Made by a program: the position numbers and the translations under genes. Positions 2,303-54,752 of a stretch of DNA of 64,000 bases are shown one piece after another. The notes beneath the pieces were generated by a model. The model saw nothing but the letters and a program-made list of their open reading frames with translations, did not search any database and was not told the DNA's origin. Numbering within the stretch: the stretch's first letter is position 1; each line of letters starts with the position of its first letter. The stretch is from Pasteuria penetrans (GTDB taxonomy: Bacteria > Bacillota > Bacilli > Thermoactinomycetales > Thermoactinomycetaceae): positions 1,116,001 through 1,180,000 of the forward strand of contig NZ_UZAC03000001.1 in assembly GCF_900538055.1 (NCBI RefSeq). The letters run 5' to 3'.

Positions 2303-2674
2303 CGCAAAACCCACCCAATACTACTTTCGCACAAGGAGCTCCCTACGATCAAAGGGGACTGGATCATAAAAAAACCTCCCAAGGATTCAATGAACATTGC
2401 ATAGGGTAAACCATTTTCCGCATTTCCCCACAATCCTCTTCCCCATGGAAAGAGGATTTTTGCATGCCTATCCATTAGCACCAACATCGTTAAAAGTACC
2501 CTATTGGCACCATCGCCATGTAGTGTCTAATACACATAGGATGGCAGCATCCGAACGGGTGTGTGCATTTTCCGGGGGTATTTTTGGTCCTACCTCCTTG
2601 ATCCCTTCGGGTGACCTTTTCCTGTATTTTTTAAAGCATAATTGTTTTATTAATTTGTATAGATAGAAAATTCG
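2303..2674. other. Intergenic stretch between the membrane gene and IS256 copy
   Basis: No gene is supported here. It contains the terminator at 2432-2461 and then AT-rich sequence up to the left inverted repeat of the insertion sequence. The flank directly before the element does not match the flank after it, so no target duplication is visible. Confidence 0.6.
2432..2461 (+). terminator. Intrinsic terminator after the Cys-rich/membrane protein pair
   Basis: An inverted repeat (AATCCTCTT at 2432-2440 with AAGAGGATT at 2450-2458, plus an inner CC/GG step) is followed by a short T run. It lies 130 bases after the membrane protein stop and would end the two-gene unit. Confidence 0.7.
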
Positions 2675-4757
2675 GGTTGCATCCCAAATTTGGTGTCAGG
2701 GCCCCACAGGGGCCCTTTTTTGTCCTTCCCGCGTCGTCTAATGACCCGTCTCTGAATCTATTTTTTTATTAATTATTTCAATCTAATATATAATAAAATC
2801 TAAATTGACCCTAATTACCATATATATCCATTTTCCCCCATTACTTTTCCTCCACGTAGAACCCCTTTGTTTGGACCTGTCTTAGTTACTCCCGGCTGAA
2901 ATCCCTTGCGGGGGCAGATTTTTTCCTACGGATCCTTGTTCCCCGCGCAGGGAGCCCCAACGGACTCCTCTTCCCCTGAAAAGGGCCCTTCGCCCCCTAA
3001 CCATTACTTGTGTTTCCCCAAATTAGTGATGATCCCAAGGTTCCCTACCTATCCTGTTTTTTTATTGTGCGATACCAAAAATATCATAGACAAAATTACT
3101 TGCAAATATTATAATATCTATTATAAATTTCTAAATTTATAATAGATAGGGTGACACAACACCATGAGTGATCAAAATTCTGGCCCCATTCACTGGACAT
3201 GTGAAGAAGATATGCGCTCTTTCTTACAATACCGATTGAAATATCTGCAAAAAAGGGGGAGTTCGTTCAAGGAGGCTATTTTGCATTTGGAGCGAGATCT
3301 TTCCAAAGATTCCAATATTGGTTTGCATGCTTTTTCCAAGGCTTTCGAGTGGTTGGTTGATCATGAGTGTGATCATTACCGACGACAGGAGCTGCAAGAG
3401 AGGAGTCCTGACGGTTCCGGTACGATGATTCGCAGAAACGGTTACAGGAAAAGAATCATACAGACAGGTTGCGGTTCTATCACGATTTTCTTTCCTAAAT
3501 TACGGGAGGGAGGATTCGAATCCGTTCTTGTGGAGCGTTATCAGAGATATACCCACTGTTGGTTGGAGAAATTGTACCCCCTCCGTGCTGATTGTGTATC
3601 CCTGCAGGATTTGTCGAGACGATCCCCGTTGTTATGCCATAGTGATATCCCACGCTCCACTCTTTCTCGTCGGTTTAGACGCTATTATGATTCCTATCTA
3701 AGTGTATGGAATCAACGTTCCCTACAAGGTAACAGCTATAGCTTCGTTCAAGCAGATGCTACCTACACTTATGTTCGTGGTAGGGGATCCGTAGCCGTAT
3801 ATATCGTCATGGGATTCAGCAACCGAAATGGTGTTCGCATTCAAGACATTTTGTACTATGGGATCGATCAGCCAGAATGTGTTCAGACCTGGCGCAAGGT
3901 CTTTCAAAACCTCCGTTCACGCGGTTTACATACAATACCCCTGATCACTACAGATGCCCATGACGGCCTCATACAGGCCATACAAGAGGAGTACCCCCTG
4001 TCTGATTGGCAACGGTTGTATAGCTCATTGGACCCGAAATCTGCGAAAGGCAGCCCTAAAGAGGGATCATCTCCCTATCGCGGAGTGGGGATCTCTCTCA
4101 GAAAGAATTCGTGAGGAGGTTTGGGAAGCCCCCAACCGGGAAGTGGCCCATAAGGCGTCCATGGAGATCTATCATGAATACCGCTCTCTTGCGCCTCGTA
4201 CCATGAGGATTTTTCGAAGGGGGTTGCCCCAGATTACGATTCATCTTCGCCACGATGGAAATGATCGCGTGGCCTGTCGTACCACCAATATCACGGAACG
4301 ATGGAATGGGGAAATCAAACGTTTCACAAAAAAGGTTCGCTGCCATCCGACCTTGGGTGCCCTTCATCAAACGGTGGGTCTTTGCGTCCTAAAACACAGC
4401 AGAAAACAACGGGAAAAAGCCATGCGAAGGACGGGTTGATTATACTATTCTAAAATGTTATATATATAGTTTATATTTTCCGTTTTATATAATAATATTT
4501 TATTAATGAATATATAAACCGGGGCTTTTTAGATGATGCCGGAAATGGATGCCAGGGCGGTCTTCCTATATATTTTTCAAAATATTTACATAATTTACTC
4601 AATTATACAGAACGTAGCCTCCGTGCATTTTAACTTTTATATTATTAATAAAAATTATTATTGATTAGAAAATCCCTCCGGGGGAGCGATTCGCGAGCAA
4701 GGATGAGGAACCTAAAATCACCTTTTTGGGGGGTGACACCAGATTTGGGATGCAACC
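2675..4757 (+). mobile_element. IS256-family insertion sequence, copy 1 (inactive)
   Basis: A 2083-bp element bounded by near-perfect inverted repeats: GGTTGCATCCCAAATTTGG on the left and its complement, with one T/C change, on the right, ending at 4757. It is almost identical to the 2082-bp copy at 52036-54117, but the transposase frame is broken by one extra G. The bases at 2667-2674 and 4758-4765 do not match, so there is no target duplication. The right end sits inside a CPBP gene and truncates it. Loss of the duplication suggests recombination or deletion after insertion. Confidence 0.93.
3164..4439 (+). pseudogene. IS256-family (Mutator-type) transposase, frameshifted
   Basis: DDE transposase. 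It matches the intact 424-residue copy at 52525-53799 except for an extra G at about 4014-4015, inside the codons for the W-Q-R-C motif. The frame is therefore split into 3164-4114 and a second frame running to 4439. Visible family motifs are the first catalytic Asp in QADATY, the second in TTDAHDGL, the W-Q-R-C-x2-H signature at the break, and the Glu in NITERWNGEIKR. One further difference (Asp for Glu near residue 45) separates the copies. The product is probably inactive unless ribosomes shift frame. Confidence 0.92.
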
Positions 4758-4897
4758 TGGAGTAATTCCCGACGAGAACTATTTTTCAACACTACTGTAT
4801 GCTGATAGTAAACACGATCGAATCTTACAACAAATAGAACAAGTAACGTCTCAAGCAACATTCTTACTAAAAGATCTATTGTAATATACTTAGACAT
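4758..4897 (-). pseudogene. CPBP-family membrane protease, N-terminal fragment truncated by IS256
   Basis: Only the first 46 or so codons remain. The ATG at 4897 is preceded by GGGAGG, and the residues match the start of the intact genes at 6821 and 8758. The frame ends exactly at the right inverted repeat of IS256 copy 1, and all catalytic segments are missing. This is the third and most distal unit of the 1.92-kb tandem array. Confidence 0.85.
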
Positions 4898-5439: not shown

Positions 5440-5797
5440 CTCAATATGGGATTGGACCCCCCCGCTACCTCATGCAGTTCCATACCTGGCCCCACGTATT
5501 TTCCTATTTCCTTCCCCCTACTGGAGTGGGTTATCTTTCGTGACTTCTCCCAATGTGCCAAGACACACCTCGGTTTTGACATGGACTGTTCCTTTCGATG
5601 CGTCCTTGAACGGTTCACTCTCGTTGAGCTCCCTAATCCCTACCTGACGGGGATTCTAGCCCTGCCTTTTCCTGAACCGCTCACCACCGGGGTGTTTCCA
5701 CACCAGCATTGTTAGGTGGTTGGAAGCCTGCTGCCTATCAACCGGCCCCGAAGGGCCACTTACAACCTTCATCGCTTGTACAGCTTACTGGACACAC
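5440..5797 (-). mobile_element. Group II intron 5' fragment, copy 1
   Basis: Read on the minus strand, the piece starts with GTGTGTCCAGTAAG, matching the GUGYG start of group II introns, and continues with structured, domain I-like sequence. It lies 23 bases after the stop of the CPBP gene at 5820. No domain V and no reverse transcriptase gene are attached. A related sequence is found at 7362-7719 and, more diverged, in the 37.6-37.9 kb intron. The assignment rests on the 5' end and on intron 3' ends elsewhere in the window. Confidence 0.6.
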
Positions 5798-7361: not shown

Positions 7362-7719
7362 CTCAATATGGGATTGGACCCCCCCGCTACCTCATGCAGT
7401 TCCATACCTGGCCCCACGTATTTTCCTATTTCCTTCCCCCTACTGGAGTGGGTTATCTTTCGTGACTTCTCCCAATGTGCCAAGACACACCTCGGTTTTG
7501 ACATGGACTGTTCCTTTCGATGCGTCCTTGAACGGTTCACTCTCGTTGAGCTCCCTAATCCCTACCTGACGGGGATTCTAGCCCTGCCTTTTCCTGAACC
7601 GCTCACCACCGGGGTGTTTCCACACCAGCATTGTTAGGTGGTTGGAAGCCTGCTGCCTATCAACCGGCCCCGAAGGGCCACTTACAACCTTCATCGCTTA
7701 TACAGCTTACTGGACACAC
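7362..7719 (-). mobile_element. Group II intron 5' fragment, copy 2
   Basis: Nearly identical to the fragment at 5440-5797. It begins with GTGTGTCC at 7719, about 23 bases after the CPBP stop at 7742. There is no 3' half and no encoded maturase. Confidence 0.6.
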
Positions 7720-10218: not shown

Positions 10219-11062
<844 letters not shown>

Positions 11063-15701: not shown

Positions 15702-15920
15702 CTATTTATAGCGATACGTAATCCGCCCCCGTTCAAGATCGTATGGGGAGAGCTGCACGGTAACACGATCGCCCGGCAAAATCCGAATGTAATTCATGCG
15801 AATCTTGCCTGATATATCCGCCGTAATGAGGTGCCCATTGCGCAACTCCACCTCAAATTTGGCATCGCGGAGGGATGTCTTCACAACCCCCTCCACTTCA
15901 ATCACGTCCTTTTTGGACAC
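15702..15920 (-). CDS. infA: Translation initiation factor IF-1
   Basis: A 72-residue OB-fold protein binding the ribosomal A site during initiation. It is full length, ending in the usual [10 protein letters not shown]. It is the downstream member of a 300-bp tandem duplication. The sequence just before its start is a leftover copy of the map 3' end, and a truncated second infA lies upstream at 15980-16219. Because it alone keeps the C-terminal strand, it is the copy expected to work. Confidence 0.95.
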
Positions 15921-16328
15921 ACTCAGGCCCCCTCTGTGTCAAAATCTCGCTTCCCTCGGTTGTAATAGCTACCGTGTGCTCAAAATGGGCACGCCATTCG
16001 CCGTCCACCGTCGCCACAGTCCAACCATCGTTTAAGATCGTATGGGGAGAGCTGCACGGTAACATGATCGCCCGGCAAAACCCGAATGCAATTCATGCGA
16101 ATCTTGTCTGATATAGCCACCGTAATGATGTGCCCATTGCGCAATTCCACTTCACATTTGGCATCGCGGGGGAATGTCTTCACAACCCCCTCCACTTCAA
16201 CCACGTCCTTCTTGGACACACCCAGGCCCCCTCTGTGTCAAAATCTCGCTTCCCTCGGTTGTAATAGCTACCGTGTGCTCAAAATGGGCACACCACTCAC
16301 CATCCACCGTCGACACAGTCCAACCATC
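15730..16328. repeat. 300-bp tandem duplication of map 3' end plus infA 5' part
   Basis: Two units with an offset of 299 bases, about 15730-16029 and 16029-16328. Each holds the end of map (the codons around [16 protein letters not shown]) and the first 60 or so codons of infA. The junction cuts infA copy 2 after SPYDLKR. The units differ at scattered positions, so the event is not very recent. Confidence 0.9.
15980..16219 (-). pseudogene. infA: Truncated second copy of infA
   Basis: A 79-codon frame whose first 63 or so residues match IF-1 and whose last 15 or so ([15 protein letters not shown]) come from out-of-frame map sequence after the duplication junction. The last IF-1 strand (RITYRYK) is missing. 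Substitutions relative to the intact copy (Phe to Cys, Gly to Asp, Tyr to Cys, Arg to His) hit conserved fold positions. It overlaps the map stop by 23 bases, which is probably the ancestral infA start context. It is likely a decaying duplicate. Confidence 0.85.
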
Positions 16329-27018: not shown

Positions 27019-27695
27019 GTACCAAACACCTCATCCACCACTTTTACCGCGTCTCTTGTCAAAATCATCTGTTCGTGACGAACAATATCTAGTGCATTCA
27101 AATTAGCAGCAGACACCACACGAACGCCCGGAATGTTGCGGGCTGCGCGTAACTCGTTCTCCCCTGGCTTCTGTTCCGTCACCACGAGCAGACGCGCTTT
27201 GGTCAATTGATTTCTTTTGTCCATCATCTGCAAGTTTTTTAACACATGCACCATAGCCCGGGTTTTGGGCTCCGCCAGGGATAAACCCTGCACAACCGAC
27301 AAATTCCCCTCTTTGGCGCGTGCCGAAAGGGCAGAACGAATGGCCAAACGACGTACCTTACGATTGATCCGATAGTTATAACACCGGGGTTGTGGACCGA
27401 ACGTCACGCCACCCCCTACCCATAACGGGGAACGGATGCTACTGTGACGAGCACGTCCCGTCTTCTTCTGACGCCAGGGCTTCCTACCACCACCACGAAC
27501 CGCAGCACGATTCTTCACAGCATGCGTTCCACGCCGTAGGGCTGCCAACTGTTGTACAACCACATCGTGTAGAACGGATCGATGGGGTGAAATAGCAAAG
27601 ACACGCTCAGGCAGGGAAACAACGCCTACCTCTTTCCCTTCCATATCACACACGGGCACCTCAAGCAAAATCTCGACCCCCTCTCCCTTTCCCAT
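27015..27695 (-). CDS. rplD: 50S ribosomal protein L4
   Basis: About 217-226 residues. It lines the exit tunnel through the loop GGGRKPWRQKKTGRARHSSIRSP and acts as autogenous repressor of the S10 operon in Escherichia coli. The ATG at 27695 lies 7 bases after the stop of the Gly/Cys-rich ORF; a TTG at 27668 has a better ribosome binding site (GAGAGGGGG, 8 bases) and gives MLEVPVCDMEGKEVG. The long open frame further 5' is Val-rich antiphase sequence of the repeat region, not L4. Confidence 0.95.
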   Translation of the reverse strand: MGKGEGVEILLEVPVCDMEGKEVGVVSLPERVFAISPHRSVLHDVVVQQLAALRRGTHAVKNRAAVRGGGRKPWRQKKTGRARHSSIRSPLWVGGGVTFGPQPRCYNYRINRKVRRLAIRSALSARAKEGNLSVVQGLSLAEPKTRAMVHVLKNLQMMDKRNQLTKARLLVVTEQKPGENELRAARNIPGVRVVSAANLNALDIVRHEQMILTRDAVKVVDEVFGT

Positions 27696-27702
27696 AATCC
27701 TG

Positions 27703-27927
27703 TCATCCACCACCACAATCGCCCGTACCGCCACAATCGCCGGTACCACCATCACCGCCACAATCGCCAGTACCACCATCACCGCCACAATCACCCGTAC
27801 CACCATTGTGACTGTGCATACCCCCGAAGATAGGGAAAACGCGACGATGGTCGGACGACGAGGACCCCTGGTCTGGTCCTTTGGGCCGCCGTAAGGCGTC
27901 AAACCAGCGCTTCACCCTACAAAACAT
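27703..27927 (-). CDS. 74-residue Gly/Cys-repeat ORF inserted in the S10 operon
   Basis: A small frame in the 378-base gap between rplC and rplD, where most bacteria have a few bases. It starts ATG TTT TGT, with a TGGGGG box about 10 bases upstream, and ends 7 bases before the rplD ATG, so it could be coupled to rplD. The N-terminal half is basic (CRVKRWFDALRRPKG) and the C-terminal half consists of repeats of GGTGDCGGD, encoded by a 27-base DNA tandem repeat, giving four evenly spaced Cys. I do not recognise a family. Gly/Cys-rich tails occur in some peptides and coat proteins. It could instead be a non-coding repeat expansion that happens to stay open. Confidence 0.45.
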   Translation of the reverse strand: MFCRVKRWFDALRRPKGPDQGSSSSDHRRVFPIFGGMHSHNGGTGDCGGDGGTGDCGGDGGTGDCGGTGDCGGG

Positions 27928-28073
27928 CCGTGATTAACCCCCACACATGATTTGCTCCTGGTTTGCTCGTGGTTTGCTCATGTGAAAACGATATCGCTCT
28001 ACCATCATCCATCGGTTGATCCCTCGTATGCAGGGAAACTTCATCCGCAAACCCTATACAGGGCCGAAAATTT

Positions 28074-28715
28074 TCAAGAGGAATAAGCTTCAGAATGCAA
28101 AATGGCGGAACGGACGATGACATAACCACGCTTGGGTCCAGGAACCGTTCCGTGAACCACCAACAGATTCCTGTCCTCATCAACGGCCACGATCTCCAAA
28201 TTGAGGACGGTCACACGACGTCCCCCCATCCTCCCCGGTAGGGTTTGCCCTTTGAAAACGCGCTGCGGGTCGATAGACCCCAACGAACCCGGACGACGAT
28301 GATAGTTAGAACCGTGACTCATCGGTCCCCGCGAGTGGCCATAACGCTTGATGGTACCAGAAAACCCCTTACCTTTGGAGGTACCCGTAACATCTACAAA
28401 CTCACCAACAGAGAACATGGAAACAGTGACCTCATCCCCCAATTGGTAAGGGGCCGTATCCATAGCGCGGATCTCACGAATGAGTTTCTGCGGTGCAGCC
28501 TCCGCCTTCTTGGCGTGTCCCTTCTCCGGTCGGGTAGCCCTCTTCAAACGCTTGGGATCAAAACCCAACTGCACCGATTGATATCCATCTGTAGCTTCCT
28601 CCTTGCGTTGCAATACCACGCAGGGACCCGCCTGTATAACAGACACGGGGCGTACCACATCGCCCTCTGTAAATATCTGCGTCATACCCAATTTCCGACC
28701 CAAAATTCCCTTCAA
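28074..28715 (-). CDS. rplC: 50S ribosomal protein L3
   Basis: A 213-residue assembly protein near the peptidyl-transferase centre. It starts [15 protein letters not shown]. It has the [23 protein letters not shown] loop, containing the Gln/His region that reaches the A-loop, and the [16 protein letters not shown] segment. The gap from rpsJ is 12 bases; the gap to rplD is unusually large and filled by the Gly/Cys ORF. Confidence 0.97.
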
Positions 28716-45084: not shown

Positions 45085-45386
45085 TCTTCCCTTCGGTTGC
45101 ATGGACCAAGCCAATGTACCATCCGAAGTAAAGAGATGATCGTGAGTTAGACCCAACGGGTCTAACTGGACGCACAATCCGCGGTAAGGAGATGATTGCA
45201 AGTTGGACCAGGCAACATGGGATCGAAACCCGTATAGAACACAGCAGAGGAGAAGGTACGAAGAACGTGACACCAGACCGGTGTTCTGAATGGGCAAAAT
45301 CCTATGGGACCATAAGAGCCACATAACGCGGGAGTATTACGTGTGGTTCTGTGAGAGGGTTGGCTGAGATGCCAGCCCTACTCGAC
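45085..45386 (+). mobile_element. Group II intron 3' end (domains IV-VI), solo fragment
   Basis: Domain V at 45316-45350 is 35 bases: GAGCCACATAAC, a GGGA-type loop and ACGTGTGGTTCT pairing back. Domain VI follows, with a bulged A in GGCTGAGATGCC, and ends CTACTCGAC at 45386, a normal intron 3' terminus. No 5' half or maturase is attached. The 3' exon sequence is the end of a membrane protein gene paralogous to 46919-47818. Confidence 0.75.
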
Positions 45387-49599: not shown

Positions 49600-49905
49600 A
49601 AATCCATTTGGAGAATACCGCGCCCCGAGTAAGACTGGCATCTCAGCCAACCCTCTCACGCCGAGTAGGGATGGCATCTCAGAGCCAACCCTCTCACAGA
49701 ACCACACGTACTACTCTCGCATTATGTGGCTCTTATGGTCCCATGGGATTTTGCCCATTCAGAACCCCAGTCTGGTGTTACGTTCTCCGTGCCTTCCTCT
49801 GCTGTGTCCTATCCGGGTTCCAATCCAATGTTGCCTGGTCCAACTTGCGATCATCTCTTTGCTTCGGATTGTACATCGGCTGGTCCAGGCAAACCATTTA
49901 ACCCC
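49600..49905 (-). mobile_element. Group II intron 3' end with duplicated domain VI
   Basis: The best-preserved domain V in the window, at 49698-49732, 35 bases with a GAGA tetraloop and the two-base bulge. Domain VI (ending CTACTCGGC) is followed by a second tandem domain VI copy (GTGAGAGGGTTGGCTGAGATGCC, about 49625-49659). The domain IV-like part matches the fragments at 36.7 and 45.2 kb. No maturase gene. Confidence 0.75.
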
Positions 49906-51020: not shown

Positions 51021-52035
51021 CCTAAAACGTATTGGAAAAAAATAGGCCCCATCCCATCCTTGAAATCAGAATTGGGGGGAAAATCCCCAACCATGATATT
51101 CCAAGCCCGGGGGTGGGGCAAAGTCCAGTAATACAAGGATTCAACTATCCTCCCGATGACCTCTTTCCCTCGCTATCGGACGCACATCCTTTGGGTAAAC
51201 GAAACAACCATTTTTTAAAAAACCCTCGTAAATCCTTATTGGACTGGTTTTCTACCAATCGAATGAAGTCACACCCTGTAGCATTTTTATAGCGATATTG
51301 GCGATGATACTCTTTCATAATAGAAAATAACTTTTCCATACCCCCTATCTCCTTAGATAACATGAATAGCATCATGGAAGAGCGTGTATAAACCATAGGA
51401 TGGAAGGTAGCAGGGGAATGATGATAAACATCATCGACAGGGGTCACCGCGGTAAACTCATTTGCTTTATCTGTCTGATTTACTACTTCTCTTATCACAT
51501 TCGGAATGAAAAAGTCATCCTTTCCCACCACATCTCGTTCATACATAACAGCAGAAAAGGTCGTTAAACCTTCATCCAACCAGGGTTCACGGACTTGATC
51601 ATTGCCCACAAACCCGTACCACCACTGATGGGCAATTTCATGAGACCCTACAGTCGCTCCTGTTTTTGCCTTCTTCTCCGATGGGGCAACCGCTGTCACA
51701 AAACCTGGATATTCCGCACCACTGAACCCAGAGTTATCCTTGATAGTCAACACAACATCCAATTCATCCGTAACTTCATCACGGTAAGAACCGAATTTTT
51801 CACTAAAGTAGCGCAAACTAGAAACGGCTTCACCTTGCATTGCATTGGCTACTGACTTCGTCACTCCTGGGGGAAACCAGAGATTGACACGCACACCATC
51901 CATCGTACCGGTAACACCCTGATACTCCGAGGAAATCAGGGCCGCAAAATCACGTCCTCTTGCCCTTGATACCTTTTGTGCCCCATGCTCCGCGGATACG
52001 GGATTCCTACCCGTAGACACAACACGATAACCCTG

Positions 52036-54117
52036 GGTTGCATCCCAAATTTGGTGTCAGGGCCCCACAGGGGCCCTTTTTTGTCCTTCCCGCGTCGTCT
52101 AATGACCCGTCTCTGAATCTATTTTTTTATTAATTATTTCAATCTAATATATAATAAAATCTAAATTGACCCTAATTACCATATATATCCATTTTCCCCC
52201 ATTACTTTTCCTCCACGTAGAACCCCTTTGTTTGGACCTGTCTTAGTTACTCCCGGCTGAAATCCCTTGCGGGGGCAGATTTTTTCCTACGGATCCTTGT
52301 TCCCCGCGCAGGGAGCCCCAACGGACTCCTCTTCCCCTGAAAAGGGCCCTTCGCCCCCTAACCATTACTTGTGTTTCCCCAAATTAGTGATGATCCCAAG
52401 GTTCCCTACCTATCCTGTTTTTTTATTGTGCGATACCAAAAATATCATAGACAAAATTACTTGCAAATATTATAATATCTATTATAAATTTCTAAATTTA
52501 TAATAGATAGGGTGACACAACACCATGAGTGATCAAAATTCTGGCCCCATTCACTGGACATGTGAAGAAGATATGCGCTCTTTCTTACAATACCGATTGA
52601 AATATCTGCAAAAAAGGGGGAGTTCGTTCAAGGAGGCTATTTTGCATTTGGAGCGAGAGCTTTCCAAAGATTCCAATATTGGTTTGCATGCTTTTTCCAA
52701 GGCTTTCGAGTGGTTGGTTGATCATGAGTGTGATCATTACCGACGACAGGAGCTGCAAGAGAGGAGTCCTGACGGTTCCGGTACGATGATTCGCAGAAAC
52801 GGTTACAGGAAAAGAATCATACAGACAGGTTGCGGTTCTATCACGATTTTCTTTCCTAAATTACGGGAGGGAGGATTCGAATCCGTTCTTGTGGAGCGTT
52901 ATCAGAGATATACCCACTGTTGGTTGGAGAAATTGTACCCCCTCCGTGCTGATTGTGTATCCCTGCAGGATTTGTCGAGACGATCCCCGTTGTTATGCCA
53001 TAGTGATATCCCACGCTCCACTCTTTCTCGTCGGTTTAGACGCTATTATGATTCCTATCTAAGTGTATGGAATCAACGTTCCCTACAAGGTAACAGCTAT
53101 AGCTTCGTTCAAGCAGATGCTACCTACACTTATGTTCGTGGTAGGGGATCCGTAGCCGTATATATCGTCATGGGATTCAGCAACCGAAATGGTGTTCGCA
53201 TTCAAGACATTTTGTACTATGGGATCGATCAGCCAGAATGTGTTCAGACCTGGCGCAAGGTCTTTCAAAACCTCCGTTCACGCGGTTTACATACAATACC
53301 CCTGATCACTACAGATGCCCATGACGGCCTCATACAGGCCATACAAGAGGAGTACCCCCTGTCTGATTGGCAACGTTGTATAGCTCATTGGACCCGAAAT
53401 CTGCGAAAGGCAGCCCTAAAGAGGGATCATCTCCCTATCGCGGAGTGGGGATCTCTCTCAGAAAGAATTCGTGAGGAGGTTTGGGAAGCCCCCAACCGGG
53501 AAGTGGCCCATAAGGCGTCCATGGAGATCTATCATGAATACCGCTCTCTTGCGCCTCGTACCATGAGGATTTTTCGAAGGGGGTTGCCCCAGATTACGAT
53601 TCATCTTCGCCACGATGGAAATGATCGCGTGGCCTGTCGTACCACCAATATCACGGAACGATGGAATGGGGAAATCAAACGTTTCACAAAAAAGGTTCGC
53701 TGCCATCCGACCTTGGGTGCCCTTCATCAAACGGTGGGTCTTTGCGTCCTAAAACACAGCAGAAAACAACGGGAAAAAGCCATGCGAAGGACGGGTTGAT
53801 TATACTATTCTAAAATGTTATATATATAGTTTATATTTTCCGTTTTATATAATAATATTTTATTAATGAATATATAAACCGGGGCTTTTTAGATGATGCC
53901 GGAAATGGATGCCAGGGCGGTCTTCCTATATATTTTTCAAAATATTTACATAATTTACTCAATTATACAGAACGTAGCCTCCGTGCATTTTAACTTTTAT
54001 ATTATTAATAAAAATTATTATTGATTAGAAAATCCCTCCGGGGGAGCGATTCGCGAGCAAGGATGAGGAACCTAAAATCACCTTTTTGGGGGGTGACACC
54101 AGATTTGGGATGCAACC
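52036..54117 (+). mobile_element. IS256-family insertion sequence, copy 2 (intact)
   Basis: 2082 bp with terminal inverted repeats GGTTGCATCCCAAATTTGG on the left and the complement of GGTTGCATCCCAAATCTGG on the right. It is flanked on both sides by TAACCCTG (52028-52035 and 54118-54125), an 8-base target duplication as typical of IS256. The 460-base non-coding 5' part contains hairpins near both ends. It is inserted in the M1 aminopeptidase gene. Confidence 0.96.
52525..53799 (+). CDS. IS256-family (Mutator-type) transposase
   Basis: 424 residues, intact. It catalyses copy-paste transposition of the element through a DDE active site: Asp in QADATY (about residue 195), Asp in TTDAHDGL (about 265) and Glu in NITERWNGEI (about 380). 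The W-Q-R-C-x2-H motif is characteristic of Mutator-like enzymes. A central C-x3-H residue set and a basic N-terminal region with R-R-N-G-Y-R-K likely bind the ends. The start is ATG after GGGTGA at about 9 bases. Expected to be active. Confidence 0.95.
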   Translation: MSDQNSGPIHWTCEEDMRSFLQYRLKYLQKRGSSFKEAILHLERELSKDSNIGLHAFSKAFEWLVDHECDHYRRQELQERSPDGSGTMIRRNGYRKRIIQTGCGSITIFFPKLREGGFESVLVERYQRYTHCWLEKLYPLRADCVSLQDLSRRSPLLCHSDIPRSTLSRRFRRYYDSYLSVWNQRSLQGNSYSFVQADATYTYVRGRGSVAVYIVMGFSNRNGVRIQDILYYGIDQPECVQTWRKVFQNLRSRGLHTIPLITTDAHDGLIQAIQEEYPLSDWQRCIAHWTRNLRKAALKRDHLPIAEWGSLSERIREEVWEAPNREVAHKASMEIYHEYRSLAPRTMRIFRRGLPQITIHLRHDGNDRVACRTTNITERWNGEIKRFTKKVRCHPTLGALHQTVGLCVLKHSRKQREKAMRRTG

Positions 54118-54752
54118 TAACCCTGAGGTACATAAAAGGAAACATAGAAATCAGCCACTCGCGTGTAAAAAGGGAACCCGGTAGATATATAGGGATAGGG
54201 ATCCACATGCCAACCTTCTTGGTCACGTACAGCCAACATAGGATACCATTGAGCTAACAGAGCTGTATTCCCATTCTGCTTCAACTGCTGCAATCCACCC
54301 TGCGGAATACGAAGATGGTAATCCATGTCCAAAGTCAGCGCTGTACCCACGGCACGCCGTGGTAAATCCACCTTCATCACGGTTTCATCTCGCCACAATT
54401 TTGCTGAGACCTCTTGACCATTTACTTTTACGTTTTGGACGCTCAAAAAACCCGGTTTTTCAGGATGTGATTCCTTATCGACCGCCCAATTGTGATGGAA
54501 AGCATTAGGATAAAGTCGAAAAAAAACTTCCTCACCCTTAGCCTCGGGAAGATCCGACGGGATTTCAACCCGCATATGTCCGGTTACATCACGTTGCTGT
54601 GGAGAATAAGTGGCCGAAATTTGATACACCGGACGAGAAGAATGATCCCCCCTATTTTCAAAAACCCTACTTGTGTAGGCATGGGAATCAAAATAACATC
54701 CGGGATCTAACAGAATACCTATCATACCCGCCCACCAAAACCATTTCTTCAT

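Follow-up and report, generated by a model that had tools for sequence, protein, structure and literature searches.

The S10 operon of Pasteuria penetrans contains a real insert between rplC and rplD, singular among the loci examined, and this insert holds a Gly/Cys-rich ORF of 74 codons (27703-27927, minus strand, ATG start) that may well be a lineage-specific small protein gene translated within the operon. The window, that is the whole stretch of 64,000 nucleotides that was analysed, carries on its minus strand, in this order, fusA, tuf, rpsJ, rplC, rplD, rplW, rplB, rpsS, rplV, rpsC and rplP, followed by the spc and alpha clusters; these operon gene names were mostly read from translations, L4 being additionally identified by profile. 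The upstream neighbour of the ORF is rplC (L3, 28074-28715, minus strand). From the end of its stop codon, at 28074, to the first ATG in the rplD frame past the ORF, at 27695, the spacer measures 378 bases (27696-28073, minus strand).

The start of rplD (L4, 27015-27668, minus strand) is more likely the TTG at 27668 than the ATG at 27695, judging from the alignment with relatives and from the ribosome binding site: the TTG matches the Met of ten relatives in the L4 alignment, and it is preceded by a good site, GAGGGGGU (-11.1 kcal/mol). Counted to this TTG, the gap between rplC and rplD extends to 405 bases. The stop of the ORF lies 7 bases from the ATG and 34 bases from the TTG, so that the distance of 7 bases to rplD proposed in the sequence-only reading holds for the former codon and not for the likelier start, with its aligned Met and its binding site. 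The L4 protein encoded here also has about nine extra residues near MDKRNQLTK, missing from the ten aligned relatives.

The size of the gap was compared with that of 120 other loci, of which 40 come from relatives and 80 are named loci of Bacillota; the two sets may share some genomes. The relatives (22 from the same family and 18 from the same order) belong to other genera, the sole Pasteuria genome in the collection searched being that of the window itself. In all 40 the ATG at the conserved start of L4 is located 20-31 bases past the rplC stop, the distances projected from alignments being 12-32 bases, and GGAGG is present in every one of these spacers (39 found by script and one, L046, by eye). 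In the 80 named Bacillota loci the projected distance ranges from 3 to 68 bases, with a median of 26. The premise that the S10 operon normally has almost no space at this point is therefore borne out, with at most 68 bases in all 120 loci vs 378 (or 405) here. Moreover, spacer DNA found no match in the 20 other relatives that were searched (E up to 0.001). When 22 adjacent gene pairs of this operon were compared with those of six relatives, 20 of the 21 pairs other than rplC-rplD were separated by 75 bases or less; the gaps in the window range from -4 to 75 bases, with the exception of rpsK-rpoA, at 240 bases (112-165 in the relatives). Junctions of the S10 operon besides rplC-rplD are not always tight, since one relative (L164) has a gap of 153 bases between rplB and rpsS. 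In another relative (L165), two apparent gaps, one of 368 and one of 440 bases, were rejected as artefacts of an early stop, the genes there overlapping or abutting. We know of no described insertion between rplC and rplD, and a literature search on such insertions gave no relevant title or abstract among the matches listed.

The genome, of 2.52 Mb in four contigs, has a GC content of 46.7% in a 360-kb sample; according to PMC13233619, P. penetrans has 46% GC, and P. ramosa has 31% GC and 1.8 Mb. With the long G-X-Y proteins, these figures agree with a Pasteuria that is closest to P. penetrans. The region of the ribosomal protein genes is flanked in the window by a direct duplication of 2.1 kb (2674-4758 and 52035-54118, 99.9% identical), near which several more diverged repeats are found. 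A tandem duplication of 299 bases (15730-16328) covers most of infA, and the interval from infA to the 3' end of map holds a further infA-like stretch that has diverged. At the Rfam gathering score, group II introns are matched at 5642-5770, 7564-7692, 45314-45386 and 49660-49734.

The ORF combines a basic N-terminus (residues 1-41, MFCRVKRWFDALRRPKG) with a tail, GGTGDCGGDGGTGDCGGDGGTGDCGGTGDCGGG, made of eleven G-X-Y triplets that derive from a nine-residue unit (GGT GDC GGD) and bear four Cys. At the DNA level the tail corresponds to a tandem repeat (27707-27806, minus strand) with a 27-base unit, GGT GGT ACN GGY GAT TGT GGY GGT GAT, present in 3.0 copies with 94% match and a score of 139. 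The third unit is shorter by 9 bases and is followed by a partial fourth. The coordinates of the 74-codon frame in its 378-base gap, the repeat, the spacing and the basic N-terminus described beforehand were all found to be right, and the expectation that the repeat would vary in multiples of three agrees with the copy spacings of 27, 27 and 18 bases within this array. A single-sequence structure prediction gives one helix, at residues 3-12, with low confidence (mean pLDDT 49).

The tail recalls bacterial collagen-like proteins, of which BclA and the Pasteuria Pcl proteins are types, in that its eleven triplets are in perfect, uninterrupted G-X-Y register. In contrast to these proteins, the repeat of the ORF is only 33 residues long, is free of proline, often has Gly at X (7 of 11 triplets) and has Cys and Asp in its triplets, and no collagen or exosporium domain is recognised in it by Pfam or NCBIfam. 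As regards the proline- or threonine-rich triplets from which a triple helix can form, the tail has Thr at Y in 4 of 11 triplets and no proline. The other G-X-Y runs that were compared count 8 to 343 triplets. Long collagen-like proteins are present in the same genome, which encodes several longer G-X-Y frames, one of them with Cys-bearing triplets. In the window, a gene for a collagen-like G-X-Y protein of 266 codons with 45-base repeats is found at 10219-11019 (minus strand), and elsewhere in the genome (L158, 6352-6963, minus strand) there is a collagen-like open frame of 204 codons with Cys in many of its G-X-Y triplets (GCP). A second parallel is offered by orphan small ORFs inside conserved operons, which are likewise short, taxonomically restricted and placed between neighbouring genes; the in-phase repeat with synonymous differences between its copies sets the present ORF apart from them.

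These differences point to coding. The four copies of the repeat vary at 3 of 21 aligned columns, each of them a synonymous third position in the frame of the ORF, an arrangement with a probability of 0.026 if three columns were placed at random, a value that depends on those three columns only. The same differences alter residues in the rplD frame (R, L, P; V, A). An antisense frame, too, is synonymous across the copies, and no plus-strand ORF of at least 50 aa was found to overlap the repeat. Furthermore, a survey of tandem arrays of at least 2.9 copies in 424 kb of the same genome (the 360-kb sample plus the window) showed that, among the 24 other arrays whose period is divisible by three, 23 are contained in open frames that have a start codon and measure at least 180 codons, as against none of the 5 arrays with other periods; these arrays are not independent, because several share one ORF. 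The sole in-phase array outside a long open frame consists of A+T only.

Both observations, together with the small size of the remaining operon spacers, argue against a different explanation that is nevertheless only slightly less likely, namely that the insert is a non-coding, lineage-specific spacer of a few hundred bases in which a locally expanded repeat leaves the ORF open by chance, the whole being read through and either untranslated or translated as noise only. The length of the ORF is by itself within chance, at least 74 codons being obtained in the frame of the ORF in 324 of 2000 dinucleotide shuffles in which the upstream spacer was shuffled and the repeat was kept. The N-terminal codons also look non-coding. 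In a codon-use score for which 149 ORFs with a minimum length of 200 aa served as the training set and chunks from those same ORFs as the test set, codons 2-41 reach -0.10 bits/codon (equally low in 6% of coding chunks and equally high in 43.5% of out-of-frame chunks), and the whole ORF reaches 0.061 bits/codon (equally low in 30% of coding chunks and equally high in 6.4% of out-of-frame chunks). Codon use looks coding-like in the repeat and not in the N-terminal part, a mixed picture for the ORF as a whole. Codon adaptation is 0.661 for the ORF, which is inside the range of 0.63-0.75 of the reference genes and counts in favour of coding, 0.728 for the repeat, and 0.608 for the N-terminal part, which is below that range; the 149 background ORFs have a median of 0.611. 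The reference was composed of 23 genes of ribosomal proteins and elongation factors, one of 24 having been dropped for an in-frame stop in its projected stretch. Also in favour of a non-coding insert are three 11-base direct repeats of the type GAGCAAACCA (27948-27982, minus strand), located upstream of the ORF and out of phase, and the low coding density that PMC13233619 gives for the genus.

The same explanation draws on the lack of homologues of the ORF in the genome samples searched. No family of Pfam or NCBIfam matches it at E up to 10, no credible match was obtained in PHROGs (best E 1.6) or the PDB (best E 1.1), and none in viral contigs, plasmids and phages, where the low-complexity filter of BLAST may mask the tail. 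In a sample of 397 other genomes of the class there was no match at E 1e-4. Weak matches to the whole ORF were found in 4 of 22 other genomes of the family (E 8e-4 to 0.063, searched up to 0.1) and in 3 of 397 other genomes of a phylum sample (E 4e-5 to 5.5e-4, searched up to 0.001); of the 41 other genomes of the order, two gave weak matches to the N-terminal part (E 0.034 and 0.054, searched up to 0.1). All nine were discarded as spurious, on gene calls made by reading translations: six (L055, L056, L057, L060, L061 and L166) lie opposite a real-looking gene frame, two (L167 and L168, the latter interrupted by three stops) are out of frame within another plausible gene of the same strand, and one (L058) is at a site without a clear gene. 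Within the same genome, the protein matches to the ORF are only collagen-like frames, at E 2.3 or worse. Two other DNA matches to GDCGG were considered as paralogues and neither was accepted, one being a short frame that overlaps a 466-codon ORF of another frame and the other an isolated occurrence of the motif in the first part of an open frame of 521 codons. Within the databases and genomes searched, the Gly/Cys ORF is an orphan. The low confidence of the predicted structure, and the fact that the rplD frame is open over a longer stretch across the repeat than the ORF, also speak against coding.

On balance we lean slightly to a translated small gene rather than an untranslated insert, and the signals around the ORF are compatible with this choice. 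Ten bases upstream of its ATG there is a ribosome-binding-like stretch, GGGGG (27938-27942, minus strand), with -9.6 kcal/mol, a value at least matched at 6% of 400 ATGs drawn at random from the same genome, in keeping with the plausible binding site that the sequence-only reading had noticed. A mini-ORF of four codons (27934-27948, minus strand; MCGG and a stop), in frame with the ORF, overlaps this GGGGG; its own site, for which the last of the 11-base repeats supplies a GGAG, is weaker (-6.6 kcal/mol), and it is noted here as a curiosity. No promoter-like or terminator-like site was found on the minus strand of the spacer, which fits read-through transcription.

Two further readings are poorly supported. 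The insert might act as a cis-regulatory element or encode a leader peptide that tunes the translation of rplD, for example through ribosome stalling or a structure bound by L4, a role already suggested from the sequence and, in our view, improbable. Its placement directly before rplD and the mini-ORF that overlaps the binding site of the ORF would suit such a leader, and the fold of the full stretch of 417 bases is more stable than that of each of 100 shuffles (z -2.2). This is the sole favourable folding result, however: four pieces of the spacer folded separately are no better than shuffles (z 0.23, -0.42, -1.01 and 0.03), no Rfam family matches the spacer at the gathering score (best E 0.47), and rplD retains a binding site of its own. 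An N-terminal extension of L4 up to a TTG at 27902 is very improbable, for although the rplD frame is the longest one open across the repeat array (295 codons) and the codon use of the repeat is higher in it than in the ORF frame (0.54 vs 0.257 bits/codon), the repeat copies differ non-synonymously when read in that frame, the alignment places the conserved start at the TTG at 27668 with its good binding site, the bacterial L4 profiles of Pfam and NCBIfam match the long ORF only from residue 95 onwards, past the extension, and the extension would contain a long Val/Ala/Ile segment.

If the Gly/Cys ORF is indeed a translated small gene, an orphan would sit between rplC and rplD and would be read on the transcript of the S10 operon, its translation proceeding from its own GGGGG binding site. 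The ORF would end 34 bases before the probable start of rplD, close to the spacing of 20-31 bases that separates L4 from the preceding gene in the relatives. The product would be a peptide of 74 residues, with a short basic helix followed by a flexible G-X-Y tail of Gly, Cys and Asp, for which we infer a structural or a thiol- or metal-binding role in a spore former that is rich in collagen-like proteins. A more specific proposal, which we regard as tentative and rather doubtful, is that of a Cys-bearing collagen-like mini-protein of the Pasteuria lineage, born or captured in the S10 operon and made at the level of the ribosomal proteins, with a structural, thiol or metal-binding function tied to growth or sporulation. 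Should the ORF prove to be untranslated, even the junction between rplC and rplD would tolerate about 375 extra bases; should it be translated, it would be a clear example of how a core operon with high expression can take up a new small gene, here in an organism that does not lend itself easily to experiments.
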